Source: an uncultured Oscillospiraceae bacterium
Lineage (GTDB): Bacteria > Bacillota > Clostridia > Oscillospirales > Oscillospiraceae
DNA length: 5,376 bases
NCBI GenBank assembly: GCA_934569215.1
Contig: CAKTKF010000107.1
Coordinates: forward strand, 1 to 5,376
Direction: 5' to 3'
Shown: positions 1 through 5,376 of the stretch, piece by piece
Numbering within the stretch: the first letter of the stretch is position 1
How the letters are laid out: the number at the start of each line of letters is the position of its first letter
Made by a program: the position numbers and the translations under genes
Notes under the pieces: model-generated
Told to the model about the DNA's origin: nothing
Seen by the model: only the letters and a program-made list of their open reading frames with translations
Database searches by the model: none

Positions 1-10
1 AGTCTTCCAT
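1..10 (-). CDS. Start of an unidentified gene leaving the left edge (partial)
   Basis: On the minus strand an ATG at 10-8 follows a G-rich stretch (GGGGGAT, about 7 nt upstream) and a clear -10 box. Only Met-Glu-Asp is visible before the window ends, so no function can be given. An in-frame ATG at 25-23 also exists, but it would lie almost at the predicted transcription start and has only a poor ribosome site. A third ATG at 18-16 is in another frame. The call rests on the promoter and spacing alone; the promoter could instead drive an RNA or a start further left. Confidence 0.35.
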
Positions 11-32
11 GAAAACATCCCCCATTTCTTCT

Positions 33-41
33 ATTATAGCA
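33..41 (-). promoter_or_regulatory. Extended -10 promoter for the leftward gene
   Basis: The minus strand reads TGCTATAAT, a perfect TATAAT with the TGn extension that compensates for a weak -35. The hexamer 17 bp upstream (56-61, TACCCA) is a poor match. Transcription would start near position 26 and give a leader of only about 15 nt before the ATG at 10. Confidence 0.6.
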
Positions 42-78
42 GAAACGGGGGCGTTTGGGTAGTTCTTTGACAGACTGG

Positions 79-113
79 AATGGAGCGTATCCGTACAGAT
101 ACGCTCCATTTTT
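79..113. terminator. Strong isolated stem-loop, terminator-like
   Basis: A perfect 13-bp stem (79-91 with 98-110) closes on a 6-nt loop (92-97). On the plus strand the 3' arm runs into TTTTT (109-113), the form of an intrinsic terminator, but no plus-strand gene lies upstream. On the minus strand it sits after the YetF/DUF4363 operon and before the next promoter, where a terminator is expected, but there the tail after the stem is not U-rich. It probably ends the minus-strand operon, with plus-strand function also possible. Confidence 0.55.
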
Positions 114-132
114 CGTGTCAGGGGACAACCCC

Positions 133-247
133 TTGGCTCCCCCTTTGGGGGAGCTGTCACCGAAGGTGACTGAGAGGGTCTTGCACCCCAGTTTCCCCTC
201 TCCGTCCTCGCTACGCTCGGCCACCTCCCCCAAAGGGGGGAGGCGAG
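133..247. repeat. GC-rich inverted-repeat (MITE-like) intergenic element
   Basis: The two ends are imperfect inverted copies of about 45 nt. The left end (135 to about 178) has CTCCCCCTTTGGGGGAG, then a GTCACC/GGTGAC hairpin, then GAGAGGG. The right end, read in reverse from 244, has the matching C/G hairpin with a CTTTG core, a GC-rich stretch, then GAGAGGG. Each end also folds alone (138-152, 156-170, 224-243). It has no coding capacity. From memory, elements with this core are scattered in intergenic regions of Faecalibacterium-like Clostridia; copy number cannot be seen here. No clear target-site duplication was found. Confidence 0.6.
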
Positions 248-280
248 GAGGTGCTTGCACGGCAAAGGGGTGCGGCATTC

Positions 281-661
281 TTAAAACAGATTCCACCACG
301 ACGCCCCGTGAGCCTTCCCCATGGCTTCCACCTTTCGGGAAAGGGCGGCGCAGCCGGCGGCGAAGTCGGTTTCCTCCCGGGCGGCGGCGTAGACCTCCAC
401 CTGAGAAAACAGAGCGTCGATCTCCTCCATGGGCGTGTGGTCGGCAAAGCAGGCGCCCAGGTGGCGGCTGCGCCCCCAGGCGTCCCGCGCCTGAAGCATC
501 AGTGCTTCTCCCTGTGCCATGTCCCCCTGAAGCGCCGTCTTTGCGGCGTTTTCCAAATCTCTGGCGATGGGTTCGTGGCATTTCGCTATGCCCCATGTGG
601 CGGCAATACCCCCGGCCAGAAGCACCAGAAGCAGAACAAAACCGATCCAACTGCGTTTCAT
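281..661 (-). CDS. DUF4363 family membrane-anchored protein
   Basis: This 126-residue protein has one N-terminal hydrophobic segment (residues about 5-26, after Met-Lys-Arg) that is a signal anchor or uncleaved signal peptide. A helical, charged domain follows on the outer side, with the DHTPMEEIDALF stretch I recognise from DUF4363 proteins. Its role is unknown. The family is commonly found next to DUF421/YetF genes, as here. I chose the ATG at 661 over an in-frame upstream start at 685 because 661 overlaps the upstream stop as ATGA (661-658) and has AAAGGAG 8 nt upstream, inside the end of the yetF-like gene. Translation is therefore probably coupled. Stop is TAA at 283-281. The identification is good; any function would be a guess. 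Confidence 0.8.
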   Translation of the reverse strand: MKRSWIGFVLLLVLLAGGIAATWGIAKCHEPIARDLENAAKTALQGDMAQGEALMLQARDAWGRSRHLGACFADHTPMEEIDALFSQVEVYAAAREETDFAAGCAALSRKVEAMGKAHGASWWNLF

Positions 662-1335
662 TTGCCGTACTCCTTTCCCAGCCACACGACCTTATTCCCC
701 GCATCCACCGTCAGCAGCAGGGTGTCCGCGATTTCCGCGCGGTGCTCCCGCAAGACCTGCTTCAGCCAGGCCTCATCCTTCCCGGCTCTGTCCAGATTTT
801 CCCGGGACAGAAAGCCGTCCTCCACGATGGTCACGGGGAGAAACTGGGGCTTGGGATGCAGCCCGGCATCCTTGGCGCTGGCAGGGCGCTCCTTGGGGAA
901 GGGAAATACGGACAGATTCCCGTCGGTTTCCAGAATGGCGTACTGCACGGCGGTGATGTCCAGTACATCCTTTTCCCGCAGATGCCCCGTCAGCTCGTCC
1001 AGGGTGACCCGGGTGCGACGGAGATTGTCCTGCACCAGCTTCCCGTTTTCGATCAGGATCACCGGCTTGCCGCACAGCAGTTGCCGGAACTTCACGCTGT
1101 ACAAAATCAGCCCGGACAGCACCAGCTCCGACCCCAGAACCGTCAGGATCGGCACCAGCCCGGAATACAGGGGGATCGCTCCATCCTGCATGGGAATGGC
1201 AGCCAGATTTGCCAGCAGCATGGTCACAACAAACTCCGTCGGCTCCATCTCCCCAATCTGCCGCTTGCCCATCAGCCGGACGCAGACGATCAGCACCAGA
1301 TACAGCGCGATGGTACGCACATAAGACATAATCAA
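658..1335 (-). CDS. YetF/DUF421 family membrane protein
   Basis: The 225-residue protein has the DUF421 layout: hydrophobic segments at about 4-22, 35-52 and 60-80, the N-terminal signature LMGKRQIGEMEPTEFVVT, then a soluble domain containing GKPVILIENGKL and the D-I-T-A-V-Q-Y-A-I-L-E segment. Bacillus members (YetF, YdfR, YdfS and relatives) have been linked to spore properties, but the biochemical activity is unsettled, so no reaction is assigned. A TTG at 1335 is preferred: it lies 6 nt after a GAGGTGA ribosome site and aligns with the usual family start (Met, hydrophobic residues, then Arg-Thr). The ATG at 1329 is the alternative, with a long 12-nt spacing. The gene overlaps the DUF4363 start (ATGA). 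It lies 91 bp downstream of CooT with no clear promoter of its own, so readthrough from the metal operon is possible. Confidence 0.85.
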   Translation of the reverse strand: MIMSYVRTIALYLVLIVCVRLMGKRQIGEMEPTEFVVTMLLANLAAIPMQDGAIPLYSGLVPILTVLGSELVLSGLILYSVKFRQLLCGKPVILIENGKLVQDNLRRTRVTLDELTGHLREKDVLDITAVQYAILETDGNLSVFPFPKERPASAKDAGLHPKPQFLPVTIVEDGFLSRENLDRAGKDEAWLKQVLREHRAEIADTLLLTVDAGNKVVWLGKEYGK

Positions 1336-1394
1336 AACCCGTCACCTCTTGGTGCTTAGGGTCTCCAGAAAGCAGCGGGATATACAGAATTTCC

Positions 1395-1417
1395 CCCGGA
1401 CGGCTGCGCCATCCGGG
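1395..1417 (-). terminator. GC-rich hairpin after cooT (possible attenuator)
   Basis: On the minus-strand RNA a 10-bp stem (1417-1408 with 1404-1395) with one G-U pair closes on a 3-nt loop. The plus-strand RNA would have a C-A mismatch at that position, so the fold favours minus-strand transcription. No U-tract follows, so it may be a weak terminator, a processing site or a 3' stabiliser between cooT and the yetF-like gene. Confidence 0.45.
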
Positions 1418-1426
1418 AGAAATCAA

Positions 1427-1624
1427 TTATGCAGGAATATTCTCTTTCACAACGGCGACGCCGTCTACCAGGTTTGCCATTTCCAGCGTACCCTCCACGG
1501 CCATCTGGCGCTCCATCAGGTCGGTGAGGATCACCATACCGTCCCGGCACTCGATCTTCATGACGTTGCGCATCATGACCGTTTCCGGGGTGAGCTTGTT
1601 CTTATAAACGGTAGAAAGACACAT
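1427..1624 (-). CDS. cooT: CooT family nickel-binding protein
   Basis: This 65-residue protein starts Met-Cys-Leu-Ser-Thr-Val-Tyr, the CooT (PF10133) signature. In Rhodospirillum rubrum CooT is a small homodimer that binds one nickel ion through Cys2 of each chain and helps nickel insertion into carbon monoxide dehydrogenase. Cys2 is present. A second Cys (residue 26) lies in a predicted beta strand, and the rest fits a small beta-barrel-like fold (alternating hydrophobics in VMKIECRDGMVILTDL). Length is typical. The ribosome site AGGAGGG sits 7 nt before ATG 1624 and abuts the stop of the His-rich gene 14 bp upstream, so the two are cotranscribed. Many Clostridia lacking CODH encode CooT-like proteins, so the client enzyme is unknown. 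The family is clear; the metal is inferred. Confidence 0.85.
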   Translation of the reverse strand: MCLSTVYKNKLTPETVMMRNVMKIECRDGMVILTDLMERQMAVEGTLEMANLVDGVAVVKENIPA

Positions 1625-1638
1625 CGTTTGTCCCTCCT

Positions 1639-2070
1639 TTACTTGACCTCAAGGCTGGACAGCACAACGCTCAGGCGCATGTTGCCCTTCTCAAAGTCGG
1701 ATACGGCGGCCATGACCTGCTCGTAAGCGGTGTGGTCGCCCGCCTTGTCCAGCTGGACGGCGAGGTCAGCCAGCTCCCTGGCATGGGCGGCGTTGTGGCC
1801 GACCATGTACTTCATCAGCGCCACCAGCTCCTCCATGGGCGTATGCTCGCAGGTGCCGGCGCAGGACGCGCAGTCCTGGCTGCATTCGTGGGAATGGGTA
1901 TGCTCCGCGCCGTCGGCGTGGAGGTGGGCGTGATCGTGGGGGTGCTCGTGGTCGTGGGTGTGCGCATGGGTATGCTCATGGGTGTGGGCAACGCCGTCAT
2001 GGGTATGCTCGTGGGTATGGGCGTGCGCATGCTCATGGCCGCCGGCCACGTGTTCGGAATCGATATGCAT
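1639..2070 (-). CDS. His-rich, Cys-motif putative metal-binding protein
   Basis: This 143-residue soluble protein has three parts. Residues 1-61 hold 24 histidines, mostly as H-x-H-x runs (His-Thr, His-Glu, His-Ala, His-Asp). Residues 63-74 hold four cysteines spaced C-x3-C-x2-C-x3-C. Residues 77-143 are predicted helical, with His92, His96 and His113 and no membrane span. I do not recognise the C-terminal domain. The composition fits a nickel, zinc, cobalt or copper store or chaperone. The nearest functional analogue I know is CooJ of R. rubrum, a His-rich nickel chaperone encoded beside CooT; no sequence homology is claimed. ATG 2070 has AAAGGAGG 7 nt upstream. A perfect-consensus promoter lies about 110 bp upstream, and the gene is first in an operon with cooT, divergent from a CsoR-type regulator that probably controls it. 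Confidence 0.8.
   Translation of the reverse strand: MHIDSEHVAGGHEHAHAHTHEHTHDGVAHTHEHTHAHTHDHEHPHDHAHLHADGAEHTHSHECSQDCASCAGTCEHTPMEELVALMKYMVGHNAAHARELADLAVQLDKAGDHTAYEQVMAAVSDFEKGNMRLSVVLSSLEVK
1888..2037. repeat. Degenerate HX-dipeptide coding repeat
   Basis: The His-rich tract (residues 12-61 of the minus-strand gene) is written as degenerate 6-nt units. On the plus strand they appear as GTG/ATG-GGY steps such as GTGGGTATGCTC. The codons vary between copies, so this is a selected protein repeat and not a recent perfect satellite. Such a tract could still expand or contract by slippage. Confidence 0.6.
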
Positions 2071-2094
2071 AGGATAGCCTCCTTTATTTTTCTA

Positions 2095-2173
2095 AGGAAC
2101 CTCTGAATAAATCGCCTTCGGCTGGGTCAAAATCTTCTGCCGCCAGCTCTCGTCGATTTAATCAGAGTTTCCC
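2095..2173. mobile_element. 79-bp MITE-like element with TA target duplication
   Basis: Terminal inverted repeats of 20 bp (2095-2114 and 2154-2173) match at 17 of 20 positions (core CTCTGA-TAAATCG). An inner GCTGG/CCAGC stem (2121-2125 with 2143-2147) lets the whole unit fold as one hairpin. TA dinucleotides flank both ends (2093-2094 and 2174-2175), as expected for IS630/Tc1-mariner-type MITEs. There is no ORF. It lies between the promoter and the ribosome site of the His-rich gene, so it is transcribed as that gene's leader. Confidence 0.65.
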
Positions 2174-2177
2174 TAAT

Positions 2178-2206
2178 ATTATACCCACGGAAGACGCATC
2201 TGTCAA
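2178..2206 (-). promoter_or_regulatory. Perfect-consensus promoter of the His-rich/cooT operon
   Basis: The minus strand reads TTGACA (2206-2201), a 17-bp spacer, then TATAAT (2183-2178): both boxes perfect at ideal spacing. An A/T-rich stretch at 2207-2221 upstream resembles an UP element. Predicted start is near 2171, inside the end of the MITE. Such a strong promoter suggests repression as the control mode, fitting the adjacent CsoR-family repressor. Confidence 0.8.
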
Positions 2207-2225
2207 AACATTTATTTTTATGCAG

Positions 2226-2242
2226 ATATCCCCCCGGAGGGC
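2226..2242. promoter_or_regulatory. Candidate metal-repressor operator (C/G-tract dyad)
   Basis: The sequence ATATCCCCCCGGAGGG contains an imperfect dyad centred on CCGG (arms 2230-2233 and 2238-2241, one mismatch) and a run of six C. It lies between the -35 boxes of the two divergent promoters. CsoR/RcnR-family repressors recognise operators with G/C tracts flanked by A/T, so this is the best candidate in the spacer. The match is by character only, not to a known exact consensus. Confidence 0.3.
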
Positions 2243-2271
2243 TTGCGGAATGGGCAGAAAAAAGGTATACT
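2243..2271 (+). promoter_or_regulatory. Promoter of the CsoR-type regulator
   Basis: TTGCGG (2243-2248), a 17-bp spacer and TATACT (2266-2271) form a moderate sigma-A promoter. The expected start near 2278 leaves no room for a ribosome site before the ATG at 2281 and so supports the ATG at 2311 as the real start. Overlap with the candidate operator would allow autoregulation. Confidence 0.55.
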
Positions 2272-2310
2272 AGGATAAATATGTTTCACCTGAGAAAGAA
2301 GGGCAAGACG

Positions 2311-2676
2311 ATGACCGACCACACCGAACACACCCACGACTGCTGCGGCGACCACGATCACGAGCATGACCATGCCTACCTCCATGCCCATGGCATTCCC
2401 CACAGTCACGGCCATGTCCACGAAAATCAGAAAGCCGTGCTGAACCGGCTGTCCCGCGCCATCGGCCACCTGGAAAAGGTGAAGCGGATGGTGGAGGAGG
2501 GTCACGACTGCTCGGAGGTGCTGATTCAGCTGGCAGCGGTGCGTTCCGCCCTGGACAACACCGGCAAGGTGATCCTGAAAGACCACATGCGCCACTGCAT
2601 GGTAGATGCGGTAGCCGCCGGGGACGAGGACGCCATTGACGATCTGTGTCAGGCAATCGATAAGTTCATGAAATAA
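2311..2676 (+). CDS. CsoR/RcnR-family metal-sensing repressor with His-rich tail
   Basis: This 121-residue DUF156 (CsoR/RcnR/FrmR) protein is a small all-helical DNA-binding repressor that releases its operator when it binds ligand. Residues 1-37 carry 13 histidines and Cys11-Cys12. The core starts about residue 41 (VLNRLSRAIGHLEKVKRM). The sensor residues are Cys67, His92 and Cys96. Their spacing (25 and 4) equals the Cu(I) triad Cys36-His61-Cys65 of M. tuberculosis CsoR and differs from the HCHH set of nickel/cobalt RcnR, though the N-terminal histidines could supply an RcnR-like ligand. So copper, nickel and cobalt are all possible. I prefer ATG 2311 over the in-frame ATG 2281 because 2311 has GAAGGG about 8 nt upstream and 2281 lies at the predicted transcription start. 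The gene is divergent from the His-rich/cooT operon, its likely target. Confidence 0.88.
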   Translation: MTDHTEHTHDCCGDHDHEHDHAYLHAHGIPHSHGHVHENQKAVLNRLSRAIGHLEKVKRMVEEGHDCSEVLIQLAAVRSALDNTGKVILKDHMRHCMVDAVAAGDEDAIDDLCQAIDKFMK

Positions 2677-2682
2677 CACTCA

Positions 2683-2710
2683 GGGGGTCAGGCACAAGCC
2701 TGACCCCCGT
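2683..2710. terminator. Bidirectional terminator between convergent genes
   Basis: A perfect 11-bp stem (2683-2693 with 2698-2708) with a 4-nt loop lies 6 bp after the regulator stop and 4 bp beyond the stop of the convergent 44-residue gene. The plus-strand tail (AATTATTTGT) is moderately U-rich and the minus-strand tail (TGAGTGTTATTT) weaker. It plausibly ends both transcripts. Confidence 0.75.
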
Positions 2711-2712
2711 AA

Positions 2713-2847
2713 TTATTTGTCCTTGGAAGTCAGCGCATTCAGCAGGCTCACCCCGGCGATGATCACGCCGGTGACCAGAAAAACGCCCAGCATTCCCGTA
2801 CCCACAATGGGCAGGACATTTATCAGATAATCCACATGCAGTTCCAT
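2713..2847 (-). CDS. Small single-span protein, sodium-pump decarboxylase gamma-like
   Basis: A 44-residue ORF (Met-Glu-Leu-His-Val-Asp-Tyr-Leu start, stop TAA at 2715-2713) begins 2 bp after the stop of the decarboxylase beta gene. Its ribosome site TAGGAGGT lies in the last beta codons, 5 nt before the ATG, so translation is coupled. Residues about 9-37 are hydrophobic with Gly-rich packing (IVGTGMLGVFLVTGVIIAG), followed by a short polar tail (Thr-Ser-Lys-Asp-Lys). Position, size and topology match the small OadG/gamma-type subunits that assemble with and stabilise the beta subunit, although the sequence is too short for firm homology. It lacks the long C-terminal metal-binding extension of classical OadG. 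Confidence 0.72.
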   Translation of the reverse strand: MELHVDYLINVLPIVGTGMLGVFLVTGVIIAGVSLLNALTSKDK

Positions 2848-2849
2848 CT

Positions 2850-3947
2850 TTAACCTCCTACCAGCGCCAGAATCAGGCCGCCCGCAATGACGGAGGCGAT
2901 CTGGCCAGAAACGTTGACCCCGGCGGCGTGCATCAGCAGAAAATTCTGCTTATCCTCCGCCAGACCCATTTTATGCACCACACGGGCGGACATGGGGAAC
3001 GCGGAAATCCCCGCCGCGCCGATCATGGGGTTGATCTTCTCTTTCAGGAACAGATTCATCAATTTCGCGATCATCACGCCGCCCACGGTGTCCATCACGA
3101 AGGCGACCAGTCCAAGTCCCAGAATCAGCAGCGTCTCCACCCGCAGGAACTCCGCCGCGTTCATCCGGGAGGCGATGGTCAGTCCCAACAGAATGGTAAT
3201 CAGGTTCGCCAGCACGTTCTGCGCCGTCTCCGACAGGGAATTCAGCACGCCGCACTCCCGGATCAGATTCCCGAACATGAGAAATCCGATCAGCGCCACG
3301 GCCTGGGGCGCGACGAGTCCGACAATGATCGTCACCGCAATGGGGAACAGGATTTTCGTGGTCTTGGAGACGGGGCGACCCTTATAGGTCATTTTGATCT
3401 TCCGCTCCGCCTGGGTGGTACACAGGCGAATCACCGGCGGCTGCACCATCGGCACCAGCGCCATGTAGGAGTAAGCCGCCACCATAATGGCCGCCGTGTA
3501 GCCGGAACCCAGCTGCTGGGCGACGAAAATGGAGGTAGGGCCGTCCGCCGCGCCGATGATGGCGATGGAGGCCGCGTCGTTGAGCTCAAATCCCAGCAGG
3601 GACGCCAGCCCCAGGGTGAAGAAAATACCGAACTGCGCCGCCGCGCCAAAGATCATCAGCTTGGGATTTGCCAGCAGCGGCTGAAAATCGATCATCGCGC
3701 CGATGCCGATGAACAGCAGCAGCGGAAACAGCTCATGCCCCGCGATGCCGAGCTGGAACAGATGGGCGATGACCCCCGCCGCGCCGGAATTGGGCAGGTT
3801 CACCAGAATCGCGCCGAAGCCCATGGGCAGCAGCAGCGACGGCTCCATCTCCTTGACGATGGCAAGATAGATCAGCGTGCCACCGATGATCCACATAAGC
3901 ACCTGCTGCCATGTTAGAAACGTCAGGTTTTCTACAAGCACTTCCAT
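2850..3947 (-). CDS. Sodium-translocating decarboxylase beta subunit (OadB/GcdB/MmdB family)
   Basis: This 365-residue polytopic membrane protein, at typical family length, is the part of biotin-dependent decarboxylase pumps that removes CO2 from carboxybiotin and exports Na+. Hallmarks are EMEPSLLLPMGFGAILVN (33-50), GAMIDFQPLL (83-92), GAADGPTSIF (132-141) with Asp135 matching the essential Asp203 of Klebsiella OadB, SYMALVP (160-166), and NVSGQIASV (345-353), the region carrying Na+-site residues. About ten hydrophobic segments are visible. I chose ATG 3947 because AAAGGAG lies 7 nt upstream; the upstream in-frame start at 3980 has no such site. The substrate (oxaloacetate, glutaconyl-CoA or methylmalonyl-CoA) cannot be read from beta alone. 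The carboxyltransferase and biotin carrier genes are not beside it; only the small gamma-like gene is. Confidence 0.93.
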   Translation of the reverse strand: MEVLVENLTFLTWQQVLMWIIGGTLIYLAIVKEMEPSLLLPMGFGAILVNLPNSGAAGVIAHLFQLGIAGHELFPLLLFIGIGAMIDFQPLLANPKLMIFGAAAQFGIFFTLGLASLLGFELNDAASIAIIGAADGPTSIFVAQQLGSGYTAAIMVAAYSYMALVPMVQPPVIRLCTTQAERKIKMTYKGRPVSKTTKILFPIAVTIIVGLVAPQAVALIGFLMFGNLIRECGVLNSLSETAQNVLANLITILLGLTIASRMNAAEFLRVETLLILGLGLVAFVMDTVGGVMIAKLMNLFLKEKINPMIGAAGISAFPMSARVVHKMGLAEDKQNFLLMHAAGVNVSGQIASVIAGGLILALVGG

Positions 3948-4003
3948 AAATAAACTCCTTTGATAACGGTCAGGGGACATCCACGCCGCCTGAATTGGGG
4001 TAT

Positions 4004-4009
4004 ATTATA
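4004..4009 (-). promoter_or_regulatory. -10 box of the sodium-pump operon
   Basis: The minus strand reads TATAAT about 57 bp upstream of ATG 3947. The -35 position (around 4027-4032) is a poor match, so an activator or other factor may be needed. Transcription would start near 3997 and give a leader of about 50 nt. Confidence 0.5.
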
Positions 4010-4030
4010 CTGCGCCGACGGTAAAAATGG

Positions 4031-4044
4031 GGCAAAGCTTTGCC
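4031..4044. promoter_or_regulatory. Perfect 14-bp palindrome upstream of the sodium-pump -10
   Basis: GGCAAAGCTTTGCC is a perfect dyad that overlaps the edge of the -35 region of the decarboxylase promoter. This is where a regulator of a promoter with a weak -35 could bind. It could also be part of the terminator region of the upstream response-regulator gene. No known regulator is assigned. Confidence 0.35.
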
Positions 4045-4052
4045 GGACAGGG

Positions 4053-4097
4053 AAAGTCTCTCCGGAAAGGCAGCGGCAGCCTTTCTGGAGAGACTTT
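4053..4097. terminator. Long stem-loop ending the two-component operon
   Basis: A 19-bp stem (4053-4071 with 4079-4097) with a 7-nt loop begins 4 bp beyond the response-regulator stop (4101). The single imperfect pair is G-U on the plus strand and A-C on the minus strand. The arms end in AAAG/CTTT, giving only a short U run on either strand. Its position makes it the likely terminator separating the kinase/regulator operon from the decarboxylase promoter. Confidence 0.7.
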
Positions 4098-4100
4098 GTA

Positions 4101-4799
4101 TTATTCGTCGGCAATGCGGTATCCTACGCCCAGCTCATTGATGACGTACCGGCAGTCCCCCGGGCGGCAGCCCAGCTTCTTGCGGATGTTCGCCATGTTC
4201 ACTTGCAGCTTCTTTACGCTCCCGTCGTCCATGCTGCCCCAGACGGAGCGGATGATGGTGGCGTAGGTCAGCACCTTGCCCGTGTGCTGGCTCAAAAGTG
4301 CCAGAATATTGTATTCCGTCTGGGTCAGGTGAACGGGATTCCCGCCGACGCTCACCTGCCGCCGGTCGTAGTCGATGAGAAGATCGTCCACCGTGAACAG
4401 GTTGGCCGGGGCGACCCGCGCCCGGTTCCGGCCGGCACGAAGCGCCGCCCGCACCCGTGCCAGCAGCTCCGCCGTCCCGAAGGGCTTGGTTATGTAGTCG
4501 TTGGCGCCTAAGTCCAGGGCGGAGACCTTGTCGTTTTCCTCCGTCCGGGCGGACAGAACAATGATGGGAACGGTGCTGAAAAGGCGCACCTGCCGGATAA
4601 ATTCGCCGCCGTCCATGTCCGGAAGCCCCAAATCCAGCACCACCAGATCCGGCGTATAGGAGGAGAAGATCAGCAACCCCTGACGGCACCGCTCGGCGGT
4701 CAGCACCTGATAGCCGTTGGTCTCCAGAATCGTCTGGACAAAGCCCAGAATGCTCTGGTCGTCCTCCACAATGAGTACCTTATATTTGTTATTCCCCAT
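4101..4799 (-). CDS. kdpE: KdpE-type OmpR/PhoB-family response regulator
   Basis: This 232-residue transcription factor has an N-terminal receiver domain (residues 5-120): acidic pocket Glu12-Asp13-Asp14, phosphoacceptor Asp56 in VVLDLGLPDMDG, Ser83 in IVLSAR, and Lys105 in TKPF. A winged-helix DNA-binding domain follows (about 130-230; HLTQTEYNILALL, GVGYRI end). The receiver closely resembles E. coli KdpE (GLL..PDL..LDLGLPD.DG.EFIR, VLSAR.EE.DK..ALD.GA.DY..KPFG). ATG 4799 is chosen because GGAGG lies 6 nt upstream; it overlaps the kinase stop by 11 bp, showing translational coupling. The start at 4829 would lie further inside the kinase without such a site. KdpE classically senses K+ limitation through KdpD, but no Kdp pump genes are in view, so the target may be another K+ or stress gene. 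Confidence 0.88.
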   Translation of the reverse strand: MGNNKYKVLIVEDDQSILGFVQTILETNGYQVLTAERCRQGLLIFSSYTPDLVVLDLGLPDMDGGEFIRQVRLFSTVPIIVLSARTEENDKVSALDLGANDYITKPFGTAELLARVRAALRAGRNRARVAPANLFTVDDLLIDYDRRQVSVGGNPVHLTQTEYNILALLSQHTGKVLTYATIIRSVWGSMDDGSVKKLQVNMANIRKKLGCRPGDCRYVINELGVGYRIADE

Positions 4800-5376
4800 T
4801 TTCGTCCTCCATTTCCAGCCGGAAGCCAACCTCGGTTCCGCCGCCGGCCCGCTTGTTTGCCCAGATTTCCCCGCCGTGTGCCTTGATAATGGCGCTGCAC
4901 ACGCTCAGGCCGATGCCCATGCTGCTGCGGCTCTGGTCTGTGGGTGCTTCGCTGTCCAGCATCCCCGTGAACAGCCTGGAAAGCTTTTCCTCCGGGATGC
5001 CGCAGCCGTCGTCCTCCACGTAAAAATACGCCCAGGAGCCTTTGACCTCCACCCGAAGCCGGAGATTCTCCATACCCTTGGCATGAAACACCGCGTTTTC
5101 CAGCAGGTTCATCAGCACCTGGGAGATCAGCATGGCGTCCATGGGGATGCTGACGAATTCCTCCGGAATCTCCACGTGAACGTCTATGTCCGGGTAGTGC
5201 TTGCGGAACTTCACCAGCACCGCGTCGATCAGCTCCTCCAGAACGGTACCGTTCTTGGAAAGACGGACGGTGGCGGCGTCCACCCGGGTCACGGACAGCA
5301 GATTCTCCACCATCCGCACCAGCCATTGGGCGTCGGCGCAGACGTCCGACAAAAGCTTCATGTGGGTCTGCCGGGG
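4789..5376 (-). CDS. KdpD-type sensor histidine kinase, C-terminal part (partial)
   Basis: The reading frame is open to the right edge (196 codons including the stop), so the start, sensor domains and phosphoacceptor His lie outside the window. The visible part has the end of the dimerisation helices (WLVRMVENLLSVTRVD) and then a complete HATPase_c domain: N box LMNLLENAVFHA, G1 box VEDDGCGIPEEK, an F-box-like SRLF, and G2 box MGIGLSVCSAIIKAHGG. It would autophosphorylate and pass phosphate to Asp56 of the overlapping downstream regulator. KdpD membership is inferred from the KdpE-like partner and the general layout; the diagnostic N-terminal KdpD and Usp domains cannot be checked here. An internal Met at 5361 should not be taken as the start. 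Confidence 0.87.
   Translation of the reverse strand, partial: PRQTHMKLLSDVCADAQWLVRMVENLLSVTRVDAATVRLSKNGTVLEELIDAVLVKFRKHYPDIDVHVEIPEEFVSIPMDAMLISQVLMNLLENAVFHAKGMENLRLRVEVKGSWAYFYVEDDGCGIPEEKLSRLFTGMLDSEAPTDQSRSSMGIGLSVCSAIIKAHGGEIWANKRAGGGTEVGFRLEMEDENGE

Follow-up and report, generated by a model that had tools for sequence, protein, structure and literature searches.

We wanted to know what a metal regulator of the CsoR family, a divergent gene for a His-rich protein and a cooT gene do together at a locus of an uncultured Oscillospiraceae bacterium where no gene for carbon monoxide dehydrogenase (CODH) is visible. The window, meaning the whole stretch of DNA analysed here, comprises 5,376 nucleotides (nt) (contig CAKTKF010000107.1, positions 1 to 5,376). 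CODH and acetyl-CoA synthase (ACS) both require nickel, and how it is loaded into them is an open question on which the family of the His-rich protein, PF26551, bears. We consider it likely that the PF26551 protein and CooT act as a nickel chaperone pair of the CooT/CooJ kind that serves CODH/ACS. The pair would belong, together with metal import, to a CsoR regulon of the InrS type, and in the lineage of the window it would have become detached from CODH. The pair likely delivers nickel to CODH/ACS, since in relatives it often adjoins the genes of these enzymes.

The PF26551-cooT pair

The His-rich gene (1639-2070, minus strand) encodes 143 amino acids and is followed after 14 nt by cooT (1427-1624, minus strand); csoR (2311-2676, plus strand, from ATG 2311 as the best start, with an alternative start at 2281) is divergent from both. 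A preliminary description of this DNA had named a CooT with Cys2, and the 65-residue product, which starts with MCLS and matches PF10133 at 63.3 bits (cut-off 27), bore this out. Gene calls and strands agreed with the divergent order given there, and the strong promoter placed ahead of the His-rich gene and cooT was recognized as a sigma-70-type TTGACA-17-TATAAT (2178-2206, minus strand; 12/12), which is kept in csoR-linked loci. Two of its claims needed correction. The protein described as having 24 His and 4 Cys does contain four Cys, while its His residues number 28, of which 25 lie in residues 1-76. The DUF156 repressor with a 13-His tail is indeed a DUF156/CsoR protein (PF02583, 97.1 bits, cut-off 22.8); its 13 His form an N-terminal extension, within the first 41 of 121 residues.

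Residues 77-143 of the His-rich protein are 100% identical to a protein (P0001) that carries a precomputed PF26551.1 assignment; a direct Pfam scan of the window protein returned no PF26551 row. This family is presumably the one named DUF8180. The same residues match 5553 proteins at E<=1e-3, and all 120 among the matches listed carry PF26551. AlphaFold2 modelled the C-terminal part as a two-helix hairpin (residues 78-109 and 113-142), with predicted local distance difference test scores mostly 95-98 in this block, and modelled the His arm weakly. A fold search with the hairpin was uninformative (best E 1.4). An alignment of 25 homologues shows no change at A84, H92, N93, H96, A97, E99, N130 and L133. 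This includes the motif H-N-x-x-H-A-x-E (residues 92-99), which reads HNAAHARE in the window (1774-1797, minus strand) and holds candidate nickel ligands. One relative (L088) has the PF26551 domain without the His-rich arm and still has cooT adjoining; we therefore regard the hairpin as the conserved core. Weak matches to Zip, OsmY and FeoC, which were below their cut-off or had none, were taken for composition or chance. No relative was found in viral contigs.

We scanned genomes with the PF26551 domain and made counts on the best 80 of 128 loci. CooT directly follows the PF26551 open reading frame (ORF) on the same strand in all 80 (median gap 12 nt), so the arrangement is beyond chance. In 33 loci csoR lies directly beside the pair in divergent orientation; it is on the same strand in one and farther away in two. 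The remaining 44 loci have no csoR gene, and in 42 of these the upstream sequence is long enough to judge. CooT also follows in the distant homologues that came from even draws of class and order (L086, L087, L088, L091 and L092). The grouping of CooT and DUF156 partners proposed in the preliminary description thus recurs elsewhere, and the arrangement of a CsoR-family regulator with a CooT/CooJ-like pair is supported as conserved.

Some neighbourhoods differ from that of the window. In csoR-less loci (L045, L014, L072 and others) the pair often comes after genes that read like an ECF S component and a folylpolyglutamate synthase. A PF26551 paralogue without CooT (L129:4894-8555) lies between a gene for an Mrp/NUBPL-type ATPase and a Peripla_BP_2/FecCD transporter, and in L203 and L209 PF26551 genes without CooT adjoin genes that read like S-adenosylmethionine methyltransferases.

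Association with CODH/ACS in relatives

Forty genomes were picked from the 80 loci; they have mostly longer contigs and are not a random set. The CODH catalytic subunit (TIGR01702) scored over its cut-off in 33 of these 40 genomes with the pair. Among the other seven, the matches in G009 and G035 were fragments, and G011, G020, G025, G028 and G032 had no CODH or weak matches that belong, by their span, to another family. CODH lay in a cooS-cooC-acsB cluster in all five examples examined (L104, L106, L107, L110 and L112), and a further search confirmed CODH and ACS of one example cluster. [NiFe]-hydrogenase was found in none of the 40 genomes (0/40) and was ruled out as the target of the pair.

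Further, we drew 130 genomes evenly from one family and called CODH at E<=1e-20. PF26551 was present in 36 and CODH in 42 of them: 30 had both, 6 had PF26551 alone, 12 had CODH alone and 82 had neither. CODH was thus found in 30 of 36 PF26551-positive genomes vs 12 of 94 negative ones (Fisher p = 4e-14, or 1e-13 without the centre genome; the p value is only a guide, since the genomes are related). In the order draw (197 genomes) CODH was over the cut-off in nine, including three of the four PF26551 genomes, one of which is the chosen centre. CooT was present in six genomes of this draw, including all four with PF26551.

The family draw gave 41 PF26551 loci, whose neighbours were assigned by phmmer (E<=1e-5) to reference proteins, some of them checked by Pfam. 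CooT adjoins PF26551 in 30 loci by script and in three more (L136, L199 and L204) by eye. The script found no PF26551 ORF in L136 and L208; the latter has CooC-like and AcsD-like genes beside the match. A gene of the CODH/ACS pathway lies within 8 kb in 27 of the 41 loci (in L198 through a methyltransferase alone), and CooC does so in 28. A csoR gene lies upstream on the opposite strand in nine, with another ORF between in L125. Frequent linked orders are PF26551-CooT-CooC-CODH and PF26551-CooT-CooC-AcsD/AcsC. L121 and L124 read PF26551-CooT-u74-CooC-CODH, and in L123 CODH, CooC and ACS lie on one side, followed by csoR divergent from PF26551-CooT-u74-CooC-AcsD-AcsC. The order in L095 (order draw) is PF26551-CooT-corrinoid protein-GntR-CooC-CODH, and L098 (class draw) has Wood-Ljungdahl genes, then csoR, a PF26551-like ORF, PF26551 and CooT. 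The small protein u74 (74 amino acids; L123:10029-10253, L125:5933-6157) has no Pfam match and is encoded between CooT and CooC in many CODH/ACS operons.

The setting without visible CODH genes, as it was first described, is therefore correct for the window locus. Judged by relatives, it probably does not extend beyond it: 33 of 40 genomes with the pair have CODH over the cut-off, and relatives also carry the pair inside CODH/ACS operons. Judging from arrangement rather than from a tree, the linked form is probably the older one and the form in the window was detached from a CODH operon.

The regulator, its predicted operator and the metal

The best solved relatives of the regulator are 6ahx and then InrS (5fmn, E 3e-22). 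Its Cys-His-xxx-Cys ligand pattern aligns to InrS Cys53, His78 and Cys82, and among 59 distinct relatives a script found each ligand pattern in 58; the two failures were CTEV instead of C[SPA]EV and a cut contig. The Cys-His-Cys site does not set the metal, because copper CsoR has the same pattern. The N-terminal HSHGHVH aligns near InrS His21, and several of its His are candidates for this ligand. The NCBIfam equivalogs RcnR, FrmR and RicR all scored below their curated cut-offs (37.1/138, 41/133 and 50/175 bits, respectively).

The intergenic regions between csoR and PF26551 (33 loci and the window) share a G-tract element, GCAAGCCC-N4-GGGGGATA, followed by an AT-rich stretch and then TTGACA-17-TATAAT. 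The distance from the start of this predicted operator to the -35 is 38-41 nt in 30 of 34 regions; the exceptions are L013, where the region is shortened by the start choice, L016, L067 and L079. In the window there is one match, an exact one (GCAAGCCCTCCGGGGGGATA, 2227-2246, minus strand; chance mean 0.01 at <=2 mismatches), within a footprint conserved in relatives. The preliminary description had not named this operator. Its start lies 40 nt ahead of the -35 of PF26551-cooT, and its end overlaps the -35 of the csoR promoter (2243-2271, plus strand), which consists of a -35-like TTGCGG (2243-2248), a 17-nt spacer and the -10 TATACT (2266-2271). In relatives, promoters of csoR and of transport operons are built in the same way. 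At <=2 mismatches and <=670 nt upstream of the domain, the operator was detected in 29 of 33 csoR-divergent loci vs 0 of 44 csoR-less ones, while 30 of the 44 retain a consensus-like promoter despite the missing operator. The CODH-linked loci L121-L140 had no match within 1 mismatch; looser G-tract sites were seen by eye in L127 and L128. Where csoR lies away from PF26551, the same operator is found at csoR, and 11 such loci have, by reading, a trmB-like neighbour. The G-tract form, the place at csoR and the absence upstream of PF26551 genes without adjacent csoR suggest that CsoR is the binder of the operator.

We also searched the 40 genomes for GNAAGCCCNNNNGGGGGATA with <=1 mismatch. There were 79 matches, compared with 2 for the reversed control; extended with GCAAG, the motif gave 48 and 0, respectively. 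All 79 sites were classified by the presence of a -10 (at least 4/6 at 16-19 nt), which 57 passed and 22 failed. Of the 57, 53 precede csoR (26) or transport operons (27). The script assigned 25 and 26 of these, and two were added by other evidence (L170, which is the same as L049, for csoR and L229 for FecCD). The 26 script-assigned transport sites comprise CbiM (5), PBP2 (5), methyltransferase plus NikB (5), SBP5 (4), ECF-S (4), FecCD (2) and NikDE-type (1); by profile, the transport families behind the operator are CbiM, SBP_bac_5, FecCD, Peripla_BP_2 and ECF. Of the 22 sites without a -10, one is near CbiM, one is intergenic and 20 lie inside ORFs, for example in a gene that reads like DNA polymerase I; these 20 were taken for chance. 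Predicted operators at L218, L172, L233, L213 and L239 lie ahead of paired methyltransferase genes, followed in L218 and, by reading, in L233 by a NikB-like permease, or ahead of an ECF S component combined with a methyltransferase. These operons perhaps serve the import of a nickel chelator.

Since operator sites precede CbiM-type transporters, the module could instead be one for cobalt, in which the regulator would sense Co(II), uptake would import cobalt for Wood-Ljungdahl corrinoids and the His-rich protein would buffer this metal. Genes for corrinoid proteins and methyltransferases are present in the same operons, and RcnR, another member of the family, responds to nickel as well as to cobalt (PMC7055735, excerpt). 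We nevertheless think that cobalt is unlikely. The regulator has the Cys-His-Cys common to InrS, its second-best solved relative, and one permease behind the operator best matches nickel models ('nickel ABC transporter permease', 347.9 bits, below the cut-off of 350). CODH and ACS are both nickel-dependent. The R. rubrum CooT is a nickel protein (PMC6006190, excerpt).

Slightly less probable again is nickel storage or detoxification, with the His-rich protein as a sponge that is derepressed at high nickel and makes no delivery to CODH. Its 28 His and strong promoter would suit such a role, as would the genomes that carry the pair without CODH. However, the CooT partner is conserved, the genes are placed in CODH/ACS operons, and the relative without the His-rich arm that keeps CooT argues that the arm is not the conserved part. 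It is very improbable that the detached pair serves another nickel user such as nickel-pincer (LarA) enzymes. In favour of it, LarC is present in 18 of the 40 genomes, including (as a part) the CODH-less G028. Against it, 22 are without LarC and CODH is commoner (33/40), and two LarC-PF26551 fusions (P0014 and P0017), which would point to lactate racemase, were taken for assembly chimeras because their joins lie inside His repeats and each has one member sequence.

The reading of the pair as nickel chaperones for CODH/ACS also has observations that weigh against it. In the class draw (274 genomes), CODH was over the cut-off in 2 of 4 PF26551 genomes vs 46 of 270 others, a difference that was not significant (p = 0.14), and 46 of the 48 CODH genomes were without PF26551, as were 12 of the 42 in the family draw. 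In G028, a named strain (Pseudoflavonifractor sp. MSJ-30), the pair is present but no CODH reached the cut-off, G263 has PF26551 without CODH, and six family-draw genomes (G375, G502, G545, G557, G558 and G617) have PF26551 without CODH at E<=1e-20. AcsD adjoins the PF26551 locus in three of these six, namely G557 (L137), G617 (L135) and, by reading, G558 (L208), which points to incomplete assemblies; the other three are without AcsD. CODH in the window's own genome is a prediction from its relatives. Four of the 57 operator sites are misfits: L174 is beside CbiM but points away from it, and L178, L187 and L240 precede other genes or none. Cobalt is indistinguishable from nickel here. Several operator-linked transport operons are of iron-type or peptide-type families or have no assigned substrate, and for every transporter behind the operator nickel is a candidate substrate beside cobalt, iron or peptide. 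Finally, the operator is centred at about -66 from the PF26551 promoter, where a simple repressor would not be expected to bind.

The window has other features around these genes. An intrinsic-terminator-like hairpin lies 3' of csoR (2683-2708, plus strand), and no Rfam family reached its gathering score anywhere in the window. An imperfect palindrome (2088-2180) with 33-nt arms, 76% complementary, which the preliminary description did not mention, lies in the leader of the His-rich gene; folded as RNA it has -36.5 kcal/mol (z -6.5). Parts of it recur in eight fetched loci, in L079 at the same place between promoter and PF26551 gene, and the repeat is a miniature inverted-repeat transposable element-like (MITE-like) element. 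Pieces similar to a second repeat-like stretch (118-260) were found in 22 fetched loci on both strands. Genes for DUF4363 and DUF421/YetF proteins (281-1335) lie downstream of cooT, and L008 likewise has a DUF421 gene soon after cooT. A gene for a sodium-pump decarboxylase beta subunit (OAD_beta, 2850-3980) adjoins csoR; no other decarboxylase subunits were recognized among the eight window proteins scanned. The stretch 4101-5376 encodes a KdpE-like response regulator and then a KdpD-like kinase whose gene is truncated where the window ends.

Proposed mechanism and known systems

In the mechanism that we propose, the PF26551 protein would gather Ni(II) at two places, the His-rich arm and the HNxxHAxE site in a helix, and would work with CooT to hand it on to CooC/CODH/ACS. 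CsoR would bind the operator and read cytosolic Ni(II) through the Cys-His-Cys site and the N-terminal His, as InrS does. Without nickel, CsoR may sit on its operators, where it would repress both the chaperone operon and csoR itself and support the uptake promoters; Ni(II) would release it. Least certain is the sign of regulation at the individual promoters: the operator overlaps the poor -35 at csoR and transport promoters, but is centred near -66 at PF26551-cooT. InrS combines repression of one set of genes with support of import (PMC7055735, excerpt), and this is the logic that we adopt. In R. rubrum, cooT and cooJ mutants depend on added nickel (PMC6006190, excerpt); these proteins matter when nickel is scarce, so induction at low nickel would fit too.

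A wider proposal, which we see about as much reason to believe as to doubt, is that in Oscillospiraceae with CODH/ACS one CsoR-family nickel sensor and one operator type set import (CbiM/NikM, NikAB-type and FecBCD-type) against PF26551, which loads CODH/ACS with CooT. The module would have begun inside a CODH/ACS operon and been freed as a self-regulated unit in the window's lineage.

CooT, CooC, CODH/ACS and CsoR-type nickel sensors are already known. The function of CooT and CooJ was studied mostly in R. rubrum, where CooT binds Ni with a Kd of 9 nM and Cys2 is the proposed ligand (PMC6006190, excerpt). PF26551 offers a much wider candidate chaperone family with its invariant residues named, and the shared predicted operator, which ties it to a regulator and import genes, makes the metal, the ligand residues and the regulation directly testable. 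A literature search limited to open-licence papers, and made without the term PF26551, gave no control of CooT/CODH chaperone genes by CsoR and nothing on this system.

Like the Wood-Ljungdahl CODH/ACS clusters, in which CooC and CooT (COG1532) occur (PMC6344411, excerpt), the linked loci have both genes in operons. CooT and CooJ are further described for portions of the CODH clades E and F, with a hand-collected CooJ set that could include PF26551 proteins (PMC13056359, excerpt). Unlike our loci, the clusters in these two excerpts come with no mention of a CsoR regulator, an operator or a PF26551 partner, and 'csor' occurs 0 times in PMC13056359.

The system resembles CooT/CooJ of R. rubrum in that CooT and a small His-rich protein are tied to CODH maturation (PMC6006190, excerpt). 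It differs in the N-terminal His arm, the HNxxHAxE helix motif, the PF26551 partner, the CsoR-family regulator and the absence of adjoining CODH in the window. Of the CooJ context, a place beside cooT and CODH genes, the window has the adjoining cooT, and CODH adjoins in some relatives only. The Ni motif of CooJ is reportedly H(W/F)X2HX3H, and the window protein has HNxxHAxE instead. A His-rich C terminus is another feature of CooJ (PMC6006190, excerpt), and here the His-rich part is N-terminal. Because these two features fail, we call the protein CooJ-like and not CooJ.

The regulator is like InrS, the Ni(II) sensor of the CsoR/RcnR family from Synechocystis, in its Cys-His-Cys site, its His-bearing N terminus and in being predicted to control both import and the handling of metal. 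It is unlike InrS in having a much longer His extension and in its predicted targets, which are the CODH/ACS chaperone pair and import, not the NrsD exporter.

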